A DNA stretch of 5,945 nt from Dehalococcoidia bacterium (GTDB lineage Bacteria > Chloroflexota > Dehalococcoidia > SAR202 > UBA11138), in assembly GCA_012270665.1 (NCBI GenBank), contig JAAXHY010000023.1:1-5945 (forward strand). The letters run 5' to 3'. Both the position numbers and the translations under genes were made by a program. Under the pieces are notes generated by a model that saw only the letters and a program-made list of their open reading frames with translations, had not been told where the DNA came from and did no database searches. Positions 1 through 5,945 of the stretch are shown one piece after another; position 1 is the stretch's first letter, and every line of letters begins with the position of its first letter.

Positions 1-519
1 CGCCCCGCATTCGGCTTTGCCGGTCCGCGCGCAACCGTATCCTCCATCTGGAGCGCGATCCATGAAATGCACAAACTCATCCGAGCGGACATTTCGGAGC
101 CAGGCGTCAATTCGCTCAGTCGGGGTCGCTTTCCGCTGGCCGTAGAGAACTCTGGCGAAGTCGCGCCCCATCCTGTCCACCGCGCGCTCGCGTAGCTGCC
201 TGACCTCCAAGATATAGTGCGCAGCCTCGTGAGCGACGGTGAATCGCTTCTGAGCCTCGTCGTCACTCTTTTCCAGCAGGATGCCCACACCTGCCCGATT
301 CACCACGATGCAGCCGTGCAGCGCGCGCTCGACGACTTCGCAATCTCTTCCGGTACGGGAAGCGGCGACTCGCGTCGTGAGATTGGCCACCTCTTCTATA
401 TAGACCTCGAGCGCCGACATGGCTGCGTAGCCTACATCGGCGGGAAAACCCTGTCTTCCACCCGCGCGTTTCCAGAACCAAGTCGCCAAGTACTCATCGG
501 AAGCGTCGAGTTCATCCAT
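1..519 (-). CDS. ImmA/IrrE-family zinc metallopeptidase, C-terminally cut by window edge
   Basis: The reading frame starts at ATG 519-517 and stays open for 173 codons to position 1, so the C-terminus lies outside the window. The key sequence is FTVAHEAAHYILE: a zinc-peptidase HExxH motif (H97, E98, H101), preceded by the usual hydrophobic VNRAGVGILLEKS-like strand and the 'KRFTVAHE' lead-in typical of ImmA/IrrE (COG2856, Pfam Peptidase_M78). Known members are cytoplasmic proteases that cleave repressors or act in stress responses. After the motif comes a segment with YGQR, TPTERIDAWL and FVHFMDR (about 126-154). I associate this with a long-form subfamily in which a later Glu-containing helix gives the third zinc ligand; that helix would lie off the window. 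The start overlaps the upstream gene by 8 bases, and GGGGA (531-535) sits 11 bases before it. It is the third gene of the sigma/HTH operon, so its target may be one of those two proteins (inference). Confident on family, unsure of substrate. Confidence 0.85.
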   Translation of the reverse strand, partial: MDELDASDEYLATWFWKRAGGRQGFPADVGYAAMSALEVYIEEVANLTTRVAASRTGRDCEVVERALHGCIVVNRAGVGILLEKSDDEAQKRFTVAHEAAHYILEVRQLRERAVDRMGRDFARVLYGQRKATPTERIDAWLRNVRSDEFVHFMDRAPDGGYGCARTGKAECGA

Positions 520-862
520 CCGGACCGCTTTCCCCGTCTTCCGCGTCGCGATCCCTCGCCGCTATCAGCATAGACTCGTCAGACGCTATCTGGGCGTACC
601 GCACAATGTTCATCAGACTGTCCGCGCGTACCTGAAACCTCTCCGCGACCATCTCTACGTCCATCTGAAAGTGGGGCGGCTCCGCCCGCGGAGCGCGGCA
701 GAGCGATATCAAGCTGACAACCTCCGGCAAACAGCCTAGTTCCTCGCTTACTTCTGCCATACTCATACCCTTCTTCTCCGAGTAGCGCGCCAGGTGCCAG
801 CCCAGATAGAAATCGTCCCTAGACGCGAGGGACGAAATCTTCAGCAACATCTCGCTATTCAT
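512..862 (-). CDS. Small helix-turn-helix-like protein of the sigma/peptidase operon
   Basis: A complete 116-residue acidic protein with no signal peptide or membrane segment. Residues 19-57 (starting YLGWHLARYSEKKGMS, then AEVSEELGC..EVVSLISLCRAP) look like a bundle of short helices with an HTH pattern. The stretch GMSMAEVSEELGC resembles an XRE-type second helix and turn. A second helical segment (about 66-96, FQMDVEMVAERFQVRADSLM) follows, and the tail (101-116) is charged, Gly/Asp-rich and probably disordered. I recall similar short proteins, with the LARY...LGC...LCR pattern, beside sigma factors and ImmA-type peptidases, but I cannot name a family. ATG 862 overlaps the sigma gene stop as ATGA, and GGGGA (873-877) lies 10 bases upstream. 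Its 3' end overlaps the peptidase gene by 8 bases. From position it could be a DNA-binding partner, an anti-sigma-like protein, or the peptidase substrate (inference). Confidence 0.75.
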   Translation of the reverse strand: MNSEMLLKISSLASRDDFYLGWHLARYSEKKGMSMAEVSEELGCLPEVVSLISLCRAPRAEPPHFQMDVEMVAERFQVRADSLMNIVRYAQIASDESMLIAARDRDAEDGESGPDG

Positions 863-1494
863 CTCAAATCTATCCCCATGCGCTGAATGCGCTTCTTGAT
901 CCGGTCCTTCACGCGCTTCACCTCTCTCGCCCGTTCAACCGGGGGCAGGCGCCCTATATTCATTACTTCGGCGGCAGCCCGGGTGCTACGTTCCCCCTCC
1001 AACATCAGCGAGAACACATCGCGTTCCACCGATGTCATTCCCCGCTTCAGGTCTTCGATGAGACGATGACCGTCCAAATCCTCCGCCACCTTCTCAGATA
1101 TATCATTCCCGTCAGACTGGCCGAATTCGACGCTATCGAGCGAAACCCTACCCTTCGCGTGCCGGGATTCTTTCCTGAGAAGGTTCTGCATATCCCGTCT
1201 GGCTGCGAGTCTCAGGTACGTCATGAGACCGCTCTTGTCGGGGTCATATTTACCCGGATTCTTGAAATAGTCGGTTAGCGTTTCGAACACCGCGAAGAGA
1301 TATATATCGGGATCTACGCTAGGCGCCAGATTCGGGAACCGCATCCGAAGGTGCTTCTCCAAATCAGGAGTGACAATCCCGAATATCTCCTCCGTCACAG
1401 TCGGATCGTCCGACAACAGCCTATCGTGGAGTTCGAGCAACTCCACTTGGCGTTCTGACACAGAGTTCGTGTTGCTAATCGGACATACCACCAT
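859..1494 (-). CDS. RNA polymerase sigma-70-family (ECF-like) sigma factor
   Basis: A complete 211-residue protein. Region 2 spans roughly 40-112: DPDIYLFAVFETLTDYFKNP (61-80) matches the core-binding 2.1/2.2 helices. GLMTYLRLAARRDMQNLLRKE (89-109) matches region 2.3/2.4, the -10 recognition helix with the usual 'WL..iA.N...d.lR' pattern, here YL.LAAR. Region 4 spans about 147-206: LKRGMTSVERDVFSLMLEGERS is the first part of the HTH, and a basic C-terminal helix (REVKRVKDRIKKRIQRM) would contact the -35 element. An unusually long turn (GRLPPVERAREV, 181-192) lies inside the region 4 HTH. There is no region 1.1 or 3, consistent with an ECF-like layout. The only ATG after the upstream in-frame stop (1540-1542) is 1494. 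Its upstream sequence has just GGAAG 12 bases away, a weak ribosome binding site. It is the first gene of the three-gene overlapping unit and could autoregulate it (inference). Family confidence is high; the regulon is unknown. Confidence 0.85.
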   Translation of the reverse strand: MVVCPISNTNSVSERQVELLELHDRLLSDDPTVTEEIFGIVTPDLEKHLRMRFPNLAPSVDPDIYLFAVFETLTDYFKNPGKYDPDKSGLMTYLRLAARRDMQNLLRKESRHAKGRVSLDSVEFGQSDGNDISEKVAEDLDGHRLIEDLKRGMTSVERDVFSLMLEGERSTRAAAEVMNIGRLPPVERAREVKRVKDRIKKRIQRMGIDLR

Positions 1495-1533
1495 AGGAAA
1501 AGGATACTTCCAGAGGATACAGCCATCACATAG

Positions 1534-1562
1534 AAATATCTATTGGGGCAGGGCCTGTGCAA
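1534..1562 (-). promoter_or_regulatory. Weak candidate promoter of the sigma operon
   Basis: On the minus strand TTGCAC (1562-1557) and ATATTT (1539-1534) are spaced by 17 bases, about 40 bases upstream of the sigma gene start. Both hexamers are poor matches to the housekeeping consensus. An ECF-type promoter recognised by the encoded sigma factor itself is an equal possibility that cannot be recognised by eye. Confidence 0.15.
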
Positions 1563-1599
1563 GATTGGCATTATTGAGATTTCGTCAGCAACTACACAC

Positions 1600-1652
1600 T
1601 GGATTGCCGAGCGGCGAGCCCTTTGGGGTTCCCGCTTTCGCGGGAATGACGA
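1600..1652. repeat. REP-like palindromic intergenic repeat
   Basis: The core is the perfect inverted repeat TTCCCGC (1629-1635), loop TTTC (1636-1639), GCGGGAA (1640-1646), followed by TGACG. This CCCGCTTTCGCGGGAATGACG core is a widespread dispersed extragenic palindrome in many bacterial genomes. It is known for spurious peptides such as SFPRKRE or VIPAKAG. The usual lead-in CACTGGATT is also present (1597-1605), but here it is separated from the core by about 23 extra bases containing GCCGAGCGGC, a second small palindrome (GCCG-AG-CGGC). It probably forms a hairpin in RNA or DNA and could act as an mRNA-stabilising or weak terminating element between the divergent units. Copy number elsewhere in the genome cannot be judged from this window. 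Confidence 0.7.
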
Positions 1653-1702
1653 TACGTGGCTATGAATCGCGGAATCGAAACTTTGCACAAGCGCTGGCGA
1701 GC

Positions 1703-1732
1703 TTGCAACACAGCGCCTATATCCACTATTCT
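1703..1732 (+). promoter_or_regulatory. Weak candidate promoter of the giant glycosyltransferase gene
   Basis: TTGCAA (1703-1708) and TATTCT (1727-1732) are separated by 18 bases, each matching 4 of 6 positions of the sigma-70 consensus. This would give a leader of roughly 110 bases. A second candidate nearer the gene is TTGGCG (1801-1806) with CATACT (1824-1829), spaced by 17 bases. That one would start transcription only about 15 bases before the ATG. Neither is strong. Confidence 0.18.
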
Positions 1733-1850
1733 CCGTATTCCAATAGCAAACTGGACATGACACGCATCAATCCGCCATTTCGCGAGAATCCGACCTTCGT
1801 TTGGCGCTCGATGATAGTCTGACCATACTCCCTATATCCGTCGACATTCC

Positions 1851-2630
1851 ATGCCTCCCATAGCCGCCGTAGTCGCTACTCACAACCGCCCCGTTCTCCT
1901 TGCCAACCGGTCCCTCAGATCGGTCGCGCTCCAGACACGCCCACCGGACATCCTGGTCGTCGCAGACGATTCGGGCCCGAAGGCGAGACGCGCCAACGAG
2001 GAGATAGTAGCGGACTTCAGGGCCGGGAGCGCGAGGACCATTTATCTTGAGAACCACCGGACACCGGGCGCCGCTGGCGCATGGAACACCGCGCTCTCCG
2101 AGATCCAGAACATAGCTCCCACCGCATATGTCGCTATCCTCGATGACGATGACTCATGGGACCCGGACTACCTCCGGTTATGCGAACAGAAAGCGTCCGA
2201 ACTCAGTCTCGACATGGTCGTTGCCGGCATCATTCGACACGAGTCTCAGCAAGCCGCCGGACGCCCCCAGTCGCTCCCCGAACGTCTGGACGTGGGGGAA
2301 CTGCTCATCCGAAATCCGCACATACAGGGTTCGAACCTCTACGTTCGGCTCAGAAAGCTACTGGAAGCCGGGGGATTCGACGAATCGCTCCTGAGCGCGA
2401 CTGACCGCGACCTCTGCATCAGACTCGCAGATCTCGGTTCCGTCAGGTTCGGCGCTGTACGGGGACACCTAGTACACCACTACGCAGAGAACGAACGCCA
2501 GAGGCTCTCGACACGCGGCGGAGATGCGAAGTGCGCCGGACTGAGGCGCTTCTTTCTGAAATACCGGGGCCGCATGTCCGGCGAGCAAAAGGACGCATTC
2601 CTCCGGCGCAGTCGCGAATTGTTCGACTGT
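1851..2630 (+). other. Domain: GT-A family-2-like glycosyltransferase (residues 1-260)
   Basis: It has the full set of GT2 landmarks: VVATHNRP at 7-14, the nucleotide-binding Asp pair in VVADDSGP (D39, D40), and the N.R.PGAAGAWN element (68-79). The metal-binding DXD region is ILDDDDSW (D98-D101), followed by GSNLYVR (160-166), GGFDE (174-178) and the catalytic-base motif TDRDL (184-188, the family's ED or xED position). All key residues are present, so it should be an active inverting transferase using a nucleotide-sugar. Sugar specificity cannot be told. Confidence 0.88.
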
Positions 2631-5600
2631 GAACCGGATGCTCCTATACAGATACCTCCGATACCTCCACCGAACAGGCCGTCCCCTAAAACAGTCGGGG
2701 ACAATGAACACCTGTATCTGGTGGTCGGCGCCATAACGTCGCCGGACACTGGCAGGATATCCAATCTCATGGACTCGCTAATGCGCAGAATCAACTGCCG
2801 CGATGATGTGACGCTGAAGGTAGTCCTGCTGGAGAACGGGACAAGCGATCCGGTATCTAGGAGAGAGCTCAGAGACGCCATAGACAGATTCTCCAGGCAG
2901 GGAATGGACATCGCTCTGAAGACGCTGGAACAACAGGCGTCGGATGTGAGGGCGGGCACATTCTCCGTCACCCCGGAGCATATGTCCGGACGCAAGAGCA
3001 TAGCCCTGAGCCGTACCATTCTGCAGCGCTACCTGTTTCTGGAAGCAAAGCCCCATCTGGGCGCCGTCGTATGGATACTGGATGACGACGTGATACTGGA
3101 CGGCCTCTTCGCAGGGCCGGCCGGTCCAGTCGTGATACAGGACATAGACTACGTATCTGAAATCAAGGCGCTTAAGAAGACGGGAGTCTGCGTCGTCCTC
3201 TGCGAGGTCACAGGGGATCCGCCCCTGCCTTTCCTGAGTTGCATGCGTACTCAAATGGTCGACCTCTACCATAACCTCCATCAACTCGCGGGCCTCCAGC
3301 CGACGGAGATATATCCTGACTTGCTGGACGAGAACCAGTTCATCCGACTGAACAGCCGCGACTACTACTATGACCTATCGCGAGTCGAAACGGACCACCT
3401 GGAGTCCCCATTCTGGTACGAGCCGAAGACTCGGAATATGAGCGTAGAGAATGTGTTCGACGAAATGCTTTCGCGGCTGCCCGAGATACTCGGTGGACGC
3501 CAGGTATTCAGGCCCCTTGCGCTGACTGGCGCGCATGACCCCTCGTCCAGGATGGCTCCCTCCATAAACAGGGGGCCGAGCACACTGGTGTTCGACCTGC
3601 AGGCGCTCAGGGAGTTCCCCAACTCTGTCCCGGAGATAGATGATTCGGACATAAGGCGAAGCGACATGGTCTGGAGCCTCCTCAACAGGTTCGTGGGAGG
3701 CTGCCAGATGGTCCGGGTTCCACTGCCGGTTCGACAGGACCGGGGAGGTTCTCCCAGCGACCGTCCCGATTTCGGAATTCTGGCACAGGACATACGCGGC
3801 TACGCGCTCTATTCGGCGATGCACGATGTATTCCTGCACAGGGCGCAGGCGCGACAGCGCCAGGGCAAGGAGCCGTACGGACGCAGCATTATGCACTTCG
3901 GTGAGGATGAAATCGAGCGTGCCGTCGCACTCTATGCCAAGTACATCCGGGAGAGAACACGGGCATTCGAGTTGAGCTTTCTCAGGGTCGTCGGAATCGT
4001 CTCAGCGCTGAAACCGTTCTACGAACCCGACTCCGCCGCCGGAACGCCATCTCCTTGGTGGCTTCACTCGAGTGAACACCGGGCGGTCGTCGACAAATTG
4101 AGGAATTTCGTCGATTCGGTGAAATCTATCTACAGCCCGGAGAATTTCGAGCGATTCAGGGAGAACGTCTCTAAGGTAGATGTCAGCCCAATCAAGGCAT
4201 ATCTCGGAAGCCTGCCGGACACCGTCGCGCGCCACCGCTCGAATACGTCGCTTCCCGGGGAGGAGCTGCGGAATACAGCGACCGAATACGTCCAGACCGA
4301 GTTTGGCGCTGTTCCACTTCGATGCCTGGGAATAGGGGAAGAGGGCGTGATACTTACCGATGAGAAGAGCGTTTACAAGTACTTCCACTACTGGAAGGCG
4401 CGCGACAGGAAGCAGCGAATCGCCTTCCTGCAGTCCCTCGTCGGCAAACTATCCGGCTGTGTATCTCTCCCGGACGTTCAGGAGGTGCGCGTACATGGCG
4501 ACCATGTAGTCGCAGTCTATCCCTACGAGGACGGGACTCGGTATGATGGAGGCCATCTCGATGGGCTACTGACTCTCCTGCGTGAGTGCAGGGAGGCCGG
4601 AATCGCCTGCCGAAACATCCACCCTGACAATCTCCTCGTAACGCGGTCAGGGGTGAAACTGATCGACTTCGGCTCGGACATTGTTCCGTTGGACGACTAC
4701 GAGTTCGAGCAGATGTGCCGGCGGGCTTTTCTCACACATCGCTTCCACTTCCGTTCAGACCTCAAGCGACTCATGAGCAGGGCGCTGACGGACGAGGACT
4801 TGCCCGAGCTCACAGACATGAACCACTTCAGGAGGGCGCTCGATCCACGGGGGTTCGACGAGCTGTTCCATATTCCGATGGCACGGATCGTGATCGCTGA
4901 GCGACCTGACTCCGTCCTGGATTACGGCTGCGGCGACGGCCGTCTGACGGAGATGCTATGTCGAGAGGATGTCCATGCCACAGGCTATGATCCCGACCAG
5001 GAGATCATAGCAAAGCGCCTGAAGCATGGGAGCCCTGCGAGATACGGAGGGATCGAGTTACTTGACGAGCTAAGAGCGAACTCCGTCGTGTTCGACTCCG
5101 TGGTCTGCAACAGGGTGCTCTGCACTATCTCCGACCCCGATGAGATCGATACCGTCCTTCGCGACCTGCGCCGTTTGGTCGCCGACTCCGGTACGGTCTT
5201 TGTGGCAGTTTGCAACCCGTTCCACATAATGACTGAGGCGACGGAACTGGCAGAGAAGCAACTACCACAAGACAGTGAATACCGGGACACATTCTCATAT
5301 ACGAAGACCGTGACCGACACCGGAAACATGCGGACCGATGTTCACCGGAGCTTAGCAGCCTACAGGCGAGCATTCTCAAGCGCGGGATTGCGTATCGCTG
5401 AAGTTCTGGAACTCGACGGCGCCGATACTGTCAGATTAAGGCCTGCGTCGGACCACCTCGTATTCAGACTCAGGCCCATGCCGGATCGAAGCCCAAGGGT
5501 CTCACTATTGATCAAGACCTGTCTGATGGAGTGGCGCGCTATCGAGCGTCTGGTTCGCCACCAGGTGGGGCAGCTGGAGGAGCCAGTAGAATTCGTGGAA

Positions 5601-5945
5601 AAGGTCGTAGTAGTCGATACCTTCGATGGGACGTTCCCGCGACAGTACGAAGATCCCGATCCCGAGGCACACCGCGCCGCTATGGACCGCCTTCTGGAAG
5701 ATGGTGTGGTGGACCGAGTGATCTATAGCCCGAGCGAGTCGGAGATCATCCGGGACACCTACCGAAGGTGGTTCGGCGTCGAAACCGACGAAACCCATTC
5801 CCTCAACGGACAGCAGATATTCGCCACACTGTTCGGCTTCGATGCTTGCGCAGGGGACTATGTCCTTCAGCTCGACAGCGATCTGCTGATCTCGAGACGC
5901 GACCGGTCTCATAACTACCTGAACGATATGGTAAATGTACTGCGC
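1851..5945 (+). CDS. Giant multi-domain protein: glycosyltransferase x3, kinase-like, methyltransferase (3' end outside window)
   Basis: One frame stays open for 1365 codons from ATG 1851 to the last base of the window, with no stop or frame change. An in-frame TAG at 1815-1817 with no other start codon in between fixes the start. The protein begins directly with the first strand of a GT-A fold (MPPIAAVVATHNRP). No Shine-Dalgarno sequence precedes it. Domains in order: GT2-like 1-260, proline-rich linker 262-281, second GT-A-like domain 287-640, helical segment 641-815, protein-kinase-like 818-985, class I methyltransferase 1005-1207, and a third GT-A-like domain from 1215 on. I see no signal peptide or membrane segment in the visible part, so it is probably cytoplasmic or attached to the inner membrane through partners. 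The combination implies stepwise synthesis and modification of a glycan, probably cell-surface (inference). The product sugar and acceptor cannot be read from sequence. ATA and AGG codons are common throughout. Confidence 0.93.
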   Translation, partial: MPPIAAVVATHNRPVLLANRSLRSVALQTRPPDILVVADDSGPKARRANEEIVADFRAGSARTIYLENHRTPGAAGAWNTALSEIQNIAPTAYVAILDDDDSWDPDYLRLCEQKASELSLDMVVAGIIRHESQQAAGRPQSLPERLDVGELLIRNPHIQGSNLYVRLRKLLEAGGFDESLLSATDRDLCIRLADLGSVRFGAVRGHLVHHYAENERQRLSTRGGDAKCAGLRRFFLKYRGRMSGEQKDAFLRRSRELFDCEPDAPIQIPPIPPPNRPSPKTVGDNEHLYLVVGAITSPDTGRISNLMDSLMRRINCRDDVTLKVVLLENGTSDPVSRRELRDAIDRFSRQGMDIALKTLEQQASDVRAGTFSVTPEHMSGRKSIALSRTILQRYLFLEAKPHLGAVVWILDDDVILDGLFAGPAGPVVIQDIDYVSEIKALKKTGVCVVLCEVTGDPPLPFLSCMRTQMVDLYHNLHQLAGLQPTEIYPDLLDENQFIRLNSRDYYYDLSRVETDHLESPFWYEPKTRNMSVENVFDEMLSRLPEILGGRQVFRPLALTGAHDPSSRMAPSINRGPSTLVFDLQALREFPNSVPEIDDSDIRRSDMVWSLLNRFVGGCQMVRVPLPVRQDRGGSPSDRPDFGILAQDIRGYALYSAMHDVFLHRAQARQRQGKEPYGRSIMHFGEDEIERAVALYAKYIRERTRAFELSFLRVVGIVSALKPFYEPDSAAGTPSPWWLHSSEHRAVVDKLRNFVDSVKSIYSPENFERFRENVSKVDVSPIKAYLGSLPDTVARHRSNTSLPGEELRNTATEYVQTEFGAVPLRCLGIGEEGVILTDEKSVYKYFHYWKARDRKQRIAFLQSLVGKLSGCVSLPDVQEVRVHGDHVVAVYPYEDGTRYDGGHLDGLLTLLRECREAGIACRNIHPDNLLVTRSGVKLIDFGSDIVPLDDYEFEQMCRRAFLTHRFHFRSDLKRLMSRALTDEDLPELTDMNHFRRALDPRGFDELFHIPMARIVIAERPDSVLDYGCGDGRLTEMLCREDVHATGYDPDQEIIAKRLKHGSPARYGGIELLDELRANSVVFDSVVCNRVLCTISDPDEIDTVLRDLRRLVADSGTVFVAVCNPFHIMTEATELAEKQLPQDSEYRDTFSYTKTVTDTGNMRTDVHRSLAAYRRAFSSAGLRIAEVLELDGADTVRLRPASDHLVFRLRPMPDRSPRVSLLIKTCLMEWRAIERLVRHQVGQLEEPVEFVEKVVVVDTFDGTFPRQYEDPDPEAHRAAMDRLLEDGVVDRVIYSPSESEIIRDTYRRWFGVETDETHSLNGQQIFATLFGFDACAGDYVLQLDSDLLISRRDRSHNYLNDMVNVLR
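2634..2693 (+). other. Proline-rich interdomain linker (residues 262-281)
   Basis: This short segment (DAPIQIPPIPPPNRPSPK) contains eight prolines in 18 residues and separates two folded GT domains. At DNA level it includes a tandem nonamer, ATACCTCCG then ATACCTCCA (2652-2669), giving IPP-IPP. It is consistent with a flexible or extended hinge. Confidence 0.7.
2709..3770 (+). other. Domain: second GT-A-like glycosyltransferase of unfamiliar subfamily (residues 287-640)
   Basis: It starts with a fresh GT-A-like strand (YLVVGAITSP, 289-298), then VVLLENGTSDP (324-334) in the place of the usual VVDDGS strand, and GRKSIALSR (380-388), which resembles the ARN element. WILDDDV (408-414) is a DXD-type metal site. 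A long C-terminal part has distinctive stretches: GDPPLPF (455-461), RTQMVDLYHN (466-475), NRGPSTLVFD (573-582) and RRSDMVW (602-608). I do not know a characterised family with this set. A GT-A fold with metal-dependent transfer is likely; the remainder may be an accessory or acceptor-binding lobe. Confidence 0.6.
3771..4295 (+). other. Unrecognised helical segment (residues 641-815)
   Basis: Mostly charged, helix-compatible sequence between the second GT-like domain and the kinase-like domain. Examples are DEIERAVALYAKYIRERTRAF (about 684-704) and HRAVVDKLRNFVDSVKSIY (about 744-762). No catalytic motif was recognised. It may be a spacer, an oligomerisation bundle, or the C-terminal lobe of the preceding transferase. 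Confidence 0.4.
4302..4805 (+). other. Domain: protein-kinase-like fold with altered catalytic loop (residues 818-985)
   Basis: A glycine-loop-like GIGEEGVIL (827-835) is followed by VYKYF with K843 in the place of the ATP-anchoring lysine. A hinge-like VAVYPYEDG (887-895) comes next. The catalytic loop is CRNIHPDNLL (920-929) and the DFG motif is KLIDFGSD (936-943). Aligned with HRDLKPENLL, the loop keeps R, P and the metal-binding N (N927) but has C920 for His, N922 for the catalytic Asp and H924 for Lys. The fold is clear, but activity is doubtful unless another residue serves as base. In the setting of glycan enzymes it might be a sugar kinase of the WbdD/LPS-kinase type or a pseudokinase scaffold (inference). 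Confidence 0.75.
4863..5471 (+). other. Domain: class I SAM-dependent methyltransferase (residues 1005-1207)
   Basis: Motif I is VLDYGCGDGRL (1022-1032), the SAM-binding glycine loop. The acidic residue after strand 2 is in GYDPD (D1047). FDSVVCNRVL (1081-1090) is the motif IV strand, and LVADSGTVFVAVCNP (1109-1123) is the motif VI turn and strand 5. Length and layout fit a complete Methyltransf_11/12-type Rossmann domain. With a neighbouring kinase-like domain, an O-methylation of a sugar or of a phosphate cap is plausible (inference by analogy with WbdD). Confidence 0.88.
5493..5945 (+). other. Domain: third GT-A-like glycosyltransferase, cut by window end (residues 1215-1365)
   Basis: It begins with VSLLIKTCLMEWRAIERLV (1217-1235), where a strand and first helix resemble the start of a GT2 domain. 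This is followed by VVVVDTFDG (1252-1260) at the second strand and VLQLDSDLLI (1338-1347), whose DSD (1342-1344) is a DXD metal site. The region after the DXD, including any catalytic base, lies beyond the window. Assignment to the GT-A fold is good; family and activity are open. Confidence 0.68.

Follow-up and report, generated by a model that had tools for sequence, protein, structure and literature searches.

A six-module protein with glycosyltransferase-like, kinase-like and methyltransferase domains at the end of a Dehalococcoidia contig, possibly a single-chain glycan assembler

The window analysed here is a stretch of 5,945 nucleotides (positions 1 to 5,945, forward strand, of contig JAAXHY010000023.1 in assembly GCA_012270665.1, from a Dehalococcoidia bacterium). 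Most of it is taken up by a single ATG-started reading frame of 1365 residues, which runs without interruption and is open at its 3' end, where the contig end cuts it. The frame belongs to a protein of six modules, laid out as follows.

1851..5945 (+): reading frame encoding 1365 aa of the six-module protein, truncated at its 3' end; 83% identity to relative P0001 over 100% of the query; full-length relatives approximately 1,730 aa
1851..2636 (+): module 1, residues 1-262, GT2 glycosyltransferase with GT-A fold; DDDD motif at 2142-2153
2706..3770 (+): module 2 core, approximately residues 286-640, GT-A-like "DDD" domain; predicted fold nearest the GT75 nucleoside diphosphate (NDP)-sugar mutases; DDD at 3081-3089
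3771..4244 (+): helical part after module 2, approximately residues 641-798; helices at 641-798 in the AlphaFold2 (AF2) model; alignment with MtdL spans 286..800 of the model
4257..4820 (+): module 3, approximately residues 803-990, protein-kinase-like; CDKL5 and CDKL2 profile matches; Lys843, Asp939 and Gly941 conserved
4614..4616 (+): codon for Asn922, which stands in place of the catalytic Asp of HRD; Asn in 338/341 rows
4833..5474 (+): module 4, approximately residues 995-1208, class I S-adenosylmethionine (SAM) methyltransferase; DYGCGDG at 4920-4940
5484..5945 (+): module 5, partial, residues 1212-1365, GT-A-like with DSD at 5874-5882; tandem match to K4CP on the L001 model
beyond the contig end: module 6, GT2; second PF00535 stretch in full-length relatives

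Judged by its relatives, this is not a chance frame, because P0001 (1731 aa) matches it closely across the whole query and a protein search with the 1365-aa query found 627 relatives at E<=1e-3 among 7,990 candidates scored. In the best 120 of these 627, 104 proteins are 1,700-1,783 aa long, seven are 1,600-1,699 aa, eight are shorter and one is longer. Thus approximately 365 C-terminal residues, which in full-length relatives hold the remainder of the DSD domain and the second GT2 module, lie beyond the window. A missed frameshift inside the window is unlikely, since the relatives are colinear with it. An earlier note on this DNA had described an uninterrupted chain of at least 1365 residues in which each domain carries its own motif set, and both observations were borne out: we found DDDD at residues 98-101, DDD at 411-413, GxGxEG, Lys and DFG in the kinase-like part, DYGCGDG at 1024-1030 and DSD at 1342-1344. 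By identity, the closest named genomes belong to uncultured Dehalococcoidia, at loci L001 and L004 (65%).

To compare architectures, we ran module profiles cut from 60-63 relatives on 331 proteins, which include those 60-63. The whole order GT2-DDD-helical-kinase-methyltransferase-DSD-GT2 was found in 195 of the 331; another 118 had the order GT2-kinase-DDD-helical, and 18 had partial or other orders. The kinase-then-methyltransferase order with sugar modules fused on both sides, which the earlier note had pointed out and proposed to look for in other genomes, is therefore widely repeated among the relatives. Elsewhere the modules are divided over neighbouring genes (L032, L043, L044). For example, Salinivibrio has a GT2 module as one gene followed by a GT2-kinase-DSD-GT2 gene; in L043 the methyltransferase is a separate gene adjoining a protein with the GT2, DDD and helical parts; and in L044 a GT2-DDD gene adjoins a fusion of SLOG cluster 4, kinase and methyltransferase at 5008-6864 (-), in which the kinase Asp is kept. 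Because the modules are split and permuted in this way over relatives, the pattern suggests that they act together. The L004 frame is a shortened copy that stops after the methyltransferase. Two other loci are irregular: L005 (10052-13606) is a decayed copy with its N-terminal part missing and an internal TAG stop, and at L041 (7074-12261) a break within the kinase-like domain divides the gene into pieces that overlap by 47 bases. The frame of the related L042 copy runs through the corresponding point, and the L041 split is either a natural frameshift or an assembly error.

Further domains have been added in some relatives. Eight proteins (P0135, P0136, P0139-P0141 and P0143-P0145) carry a fused fragment of a UDP-Glc/GDP-Man dehydrogenase. 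The fragment is N-terminal in both of those scanned (P0135 and P0139) and probably also in the other six, where module 1 starts at residue 274-303. In P0263, RibA-NADAR is fused to a GT2-kinase-DDD protein.

Predicted structures were confident (predicted local distance difference test scores of 91.8 and 91.9 for the two models), with folds matching GT2, GT75-like, methyltransferase and GT-A proteins; the matches of the second model fell mostly on the methyltransferase and GT-A modules. The domains were thus not modelled in unrelated folds, the outcome that the earlier note had named as telling against it, and its kinase and class I methyltransferase assignments stand in outline on profile matches, motifs and models. 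In module 4 a SAM-binding motif and a Rossmann fold are both present, and the SAM-motif Asp and Gly are kept in 63 of 63 rows; among single-domain matches of the methyltransferase model, the toxoflavin methyltransferase ToxA ranks first. Metal motifs are retained as well: in module 5 the first Asp of DSD is kept in 61 of 63 rows and the third in 63 of 63. Towards the C-terminus of the full-length chain, DxDD is kept in all 61 rows that have residues there. On the L001 model, the tandem of modules 5 and 6 aligns with the chondroitin polymerase K4CP across both GT-A modules. K4CP and the heparosan synthase PmHS2 likewise each carry a tandem pair of GT-A modules within a single polypeptide. The likeness to K4CP covers fold and tandem order only: the orientation of the modules differs (root mean square deviation of 20.7 A over both), and here the pair is embedded in a larger chain.

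Module 2 requires separate treatment. In the predicted structure and fold search, residues 286-800 fold into a GT-A-like core with a helical part after it, and the nearest fold is that of the GT75 sugar-nucleotide mutases, with both the core and the helical C-terminal part represented. The helical part, approximately 641-798, lies where the C-terminal helix region stands in MtdL, whose layout we took from section 4 of PMC9937993. In view of this GT75-like fold match, we no longer regard module 2 as an ordinary transferase. The earlier note had counted three transferase-like domains; their GT2 and GT-A identities hold in outline, but the second is nearest the GT75 mutases by fold, not by sequence. 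Conservation was measured on hits above 150 bits (P0122 and P0125 gave no row), of which 339 of 342 rows were grouped. In the grouped rows the DDD motif is kept almost throughout (D411 339/339, D412 333/339, D413 338/339), and R466, D508 and D605 are invariant or nearly so, with Arg466 present in 339/339. We considered Arg466 as the GT75 nucleophile and dropped it, the GT75 alignment giving no backing. By motif comparison the RGYPY-type Arg of GT75 falls near Thr454; the profile alignment is non-significant. By such a non-significant alignment, the site of the metal-binding His287 of MtdL is Gln629 in the window; Gln stands there in 182 and His in 19 of 206 six-module rows, while all 121 rows of the shorter type have His.

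The kinase-like fold of module 3 rests on profile hits, motifs and the model. The family profile matches CDKL5 (4bgq, E=4.6e-5) and CDKL2 (4aaa, E=5.8e-4). We aligned hits that passed E<1e-10 and covered more than 110 residues, giving 341 rows from 334 distinct proteins (P0124 and P0125 gave no row). Lys843 (VAIK-type), the DFG Asp939 and Gly941 are each present in all 341 rows. The position of the catalytic Asp of HRD, by contrast, is Asn (Asn922 in the window) in 338 of 341 rows and in 208 of 208 six-module rows, a replacement that the earlier note missed. Asp is found there in P0231, L044 and L045, of which L044 and L045 have other architectures. Because the Asp is replaced in every six-module row while the nucleotide-binding residues are kept, the alignment suggests that the domain in the six-module clade is a nucleotide-binding pseudokinase, comparable to HER3 and the pseudokinase domain of JAK2.

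The same rows bear on a different explanation, that the protein is a regulated synthase of glycoproteins or cell-surface glycans whose kinase-like module is unusual but active without the HRD Asp. The Asn and the nucleotide-binding residues that we checked are strictly conserved and not drifting, as function predicts. Set against this, Asp is present at the site in P0231 and in the differently built L044 and L045, and may be the original state; we regard an active kinase of this kind as very unlikely. The archaeal protein at L045 (6138-8483) combines an Asp-keeping kinase-like domain with GT2-like and histidine phosphatase domains, possibly a kinase-phosphatase pair within one chain.

The earlier note had proposed an all-in-one glycan assembly and capping enzyme, in other words an O-antigen-like polymerase joined to a phospho-methyl terminator, in which the kinase would phosphorylate the non-reducing end and the methyltransferase would methylate the phosphate. 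The kinase-like and methyltransferase modules are indeed adjacent, and the nucleotide-binding residues are retained. There is also a precedent: ORF6 of the Klebsiella pneumoniae O7 cluster (ORF6-O7), as described in the portions of PMC11231755 used here, puts terminator and polymerase in one long chain holding methyltransferase, kinase and glycosyltransferase modules, so that a one-chain fusion of the three is already known and the present one is less novel than had been claimed. The Asp-to-Asn change argues against such capping. According to the same portions of PMC11231755, ORF6-O7 has an N-terminal methyltransferase, a coiled coil and an active kinase that depends on D441, its cluster contains wzm/wzt, and the substitution D441A, at the same Asp, abolished conversion. 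In the present protein Asn replaces that Asp, a GT75-like module is added, and no exporter was recognised in the scanned neighbourhoods of relatives. Nor is a coiled-coil ruler evident, the longest helix in the two models being 35 residues (no coiled-coil predictor was run).

A kinase fold and a methyltransferase in one glycan-synthesis protein are also the likeness to the WbdD/WbdA systems of Escherichia coli O9a and K. pneumoniae O3. In WbdD the methyltransferase comes first and the kinase second. Here that order is reversed, and the catalytic Asp is replaced. The transferases are fused here and recruited there, as described in the portions of PMC11231755 used. By the tests made, the protein is not a WbdD-type terminator, and we consider the capping explanation as a whole quite unlikely.

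Gene neighbourhoods offer a further check. We scanned 59 neighbour genes at L001-L004, L006, L008, L031, L032, L043-L046 and the L041 pair, eight of them without a Pfam match; other neighbours were judged by eye or unscanned, and the window holds no sequence downstream of the gene. Export genes (Wzm/Wzt-type, Wzx or Wzy), which the earlier note had suggested seeking nearby and which a terminator would lead one to look for, were not recognised among the 59. The ABC genes at L045 and L046 are instead of importer type, with solute-binding proteins: a FecCD-type iron-uptake set lies downstream in L045, and in L046 a solute-binding protein, an ABC ATPase and an importer-type permease lie immediately upstream on the same strand. 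Several loci do carry sugar-nucleotide genes. In L002 (Poribacteria), a nucleotidyltransferase, a UDP-Glc-type dehydrogenase and an epimerase are near the gene. In L008 and L041, both archaeal, a dehydrogenase that lacks the UDP-binding domain is found together with an NYN-type nuclease, and its domains are the same two as are fused in the eight proteins above. In L044 a polysaccharide deacetylase adjoins the SLOG-kinase-methyltransferase gene. After the Poribacteria-phylum relative at L046 (131-13075), of GT2-DDD-helical architecture, come a sulfotransferase, two PhyH dioxygenases and a SLOG protein with a deacetylase match slightly below the cutoff. A SufBD gene is near the six-module gene in both L001 and L004, and a luciferase-like monooxygenase gene lies upstream in each (7866-8795 in L001, with one gene between; 9028-9966 in L004, with none between).

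Some of these neighbourhoods point in another direction, to a natural-product enzyme making a glycosylated, methylated and perhaps furanose-containing metabolite, nucleoside-like or pyrimidine-derived. A Pseudoalteromonas plasmid (L031, 19983-26505) and a marine euryarchaeote (L006, 282-5838) have in common an operon of glycosyltransferase protein, RibA-NADAR, AsnB-like and NAT-like genes, which looks like an uncharacterised small-molecule pathway; a literature search on NADAR with GTP cyclohydrolase II and a glycosyltransferase found no paper. The RibA-NADAR fusion in P0263 and the first rank of ToxA fit the same idea, as do SLOG cluster-4 domains (PF18306), which are in the next gene at L008, two genes further along at L043, approximately 5.5 kb further along at L046, and fused in L044. 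The GT75 mutases MtdL and Hyg20 serve antibiotic pathways, according to the part of PMC9937993 used here. On balance we think this explanation rather unlikely.

The protein is sparsely distributed. At E<=1e-30, one of 148 genomes in the class of L001 matched (the starting genome alone), six of 292 in the phylum of L008, counting the starting genome and with partial matches in G164, G234 and G441, and two of 84 in the phylum of L002, counting the starting genome, where the second (G458) has only GT2-DDD-helical. In Gammaproteobacteria, query P0121 matched none of 369 genomes at the same threshold; this search had no positive control and shows sparseness only. In genome surveys with the Pfam RGP profile PF03214, one of 301 and none of 243 genomes matched, with the control in Haloferax volcanii found. 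The seven starting genomes have one gene each, G007 adding a short methyltransferase-only hit and the two rows of G002 being pieces of one gene. Two plasmid records carry multi-module relatives (66% and 30% query coverage). The sparse pattern looks like horizontal spread. A phage origin was rejected: no phage record matched, and the sole viral-contig locus matches module 1 only (27%, residues 4-233). The gene was also rejected as a defence gene, the PADLOC matches being weak and falling on the catalytic loop of the kinase and on the methyltransferase. Among the papers listed by literature searches, none describes this six-module protein.

The remainder of the window was examined as well. Positions 1-519 (-) hold an ImmA/IrrE-like M78 peptidase gene, open at the edge (PF06114, E=2.3e-5; PADLOC capP, E=1.6e-7), after which come a short gene (512-862, -) and another frame (859-1494, -), whose match to sigma-70 region 2 is below the cutoff. 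The gap upstream of the six-module gene contains a perfect inverted repeat, TTCCCGC-TTTC-GCGGGAA, at 1629-1646, with a related pattern in one of 54 loci; repeats of this kind are dispersed in many genomes. No RNA element reached the gathering threshold.

Taken together, we give about an even chance to the explanation that the protein is soluble, contains a regulatory pseudokinase and assembles, as a single chain, a glycan or glycoconjugate that is methylated; its activities, solubility, order of steps and product are what we infer from the observations above. Module 2 would probably handle or isomerise an NDP-sugar, a mutase activity being suggested by its GT75-like fold. The GT-A transferases of modules 1, 5 and 6 would add sugars in turn, with 5 and 6 forming a tandem comparable to that of chondroitin polymerase, and the class I methyltransferase would methylate the product, either while it grows or once it is finished. 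The kinase-like module, its phosphotransfer probably lost, may bind ATP/Mg and have a role in regulation or docking. The sugar-nucleotide logic of this scheme draws on the dehydrogenase fusions in eight proteins, the free dehydrogenases at L002, L008 and L041, the nucleotidyltransferase and epimerase of L002 and the deacetylase of L044. The product would more likely be a defined cytosolic methylated oligosaccharide or glycoconjugate than an O-polysaccharide exported by an ABC transporter.

Several observations weigh against this assembler. A conserved Asn at the HRD position is no proof of inactivity, and some kinases with Asn there retain weak activity. The scanned neighbours in the Chloroflexota loci L001, L003 and L004 show no glycan pathway; those not described above are unrelated (purine genes, endonuclease III, a GMC oxidoreductase, HsdM and others), and the importer sets at L045 and L046 also spoil a clean neighbourhood picture. 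Most of the remaining points concern module 2, whose link to GT75 is one of predicted fold only. The nucleophilic Arg of GT75 has no clear counterpart in it. The Pfam RGP family PF03214 did not match window 2694-4250 at E<=10, although four GT75 control proteins did match, and the comparison of module 2 with GT75 profiles was not significant (probability 0.20 and 0.36 per cent). The same GT75 set scored modules 1 and 5 higher, at 8.8 and 13.5 per cent (0.36 for module 2, 0.1 for module 6), and so module 2 has no special sequence link to GT75. A profile of 10 against PDB sequences and a single GT75 sequence likewise gave no significant GT75 link for it. Module 2 differs from MtdL and the plant UAM/RGP proteins in sequence, in the Gln at the metal-His site (by the non-significant alignment), in the unclear place of the nucleophilic Arg and in its position within a multi-module chain. 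Rice UAM2, one of the two matched proteins, was itself reported inactive, according to the part of PMC9937993 used here.

A more ambitious version, which we hold to be improbable, is an assembly line for glycans in the cytosol that would form a class of its own, common to archaea and bacteria as a result of domain shuffling and horizontal transfer. In it a built-in mutase would supply furanosyl donors to the fused transferases, the methyltransferase would tailor the product, and the conserved Asn-type pseudokinase would sense ATP and so gate the chain, giving a nucleotide-linked or furanose-containing glycoconjugate. If the assembler is real, one protein spread between archaea and bacteria would unite an isomerase of sugar nucleotides with transferases, a methylating module and a sensor of ATP. 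The family also carries a warning, in that a kinase and a methyltransferase beside transferases need not imply phospho-methyl capping, and its conserved Asp-to-Asn change offers a simple way to test whether prokaryotic glycan synthesis is under the control of pseudokinases.

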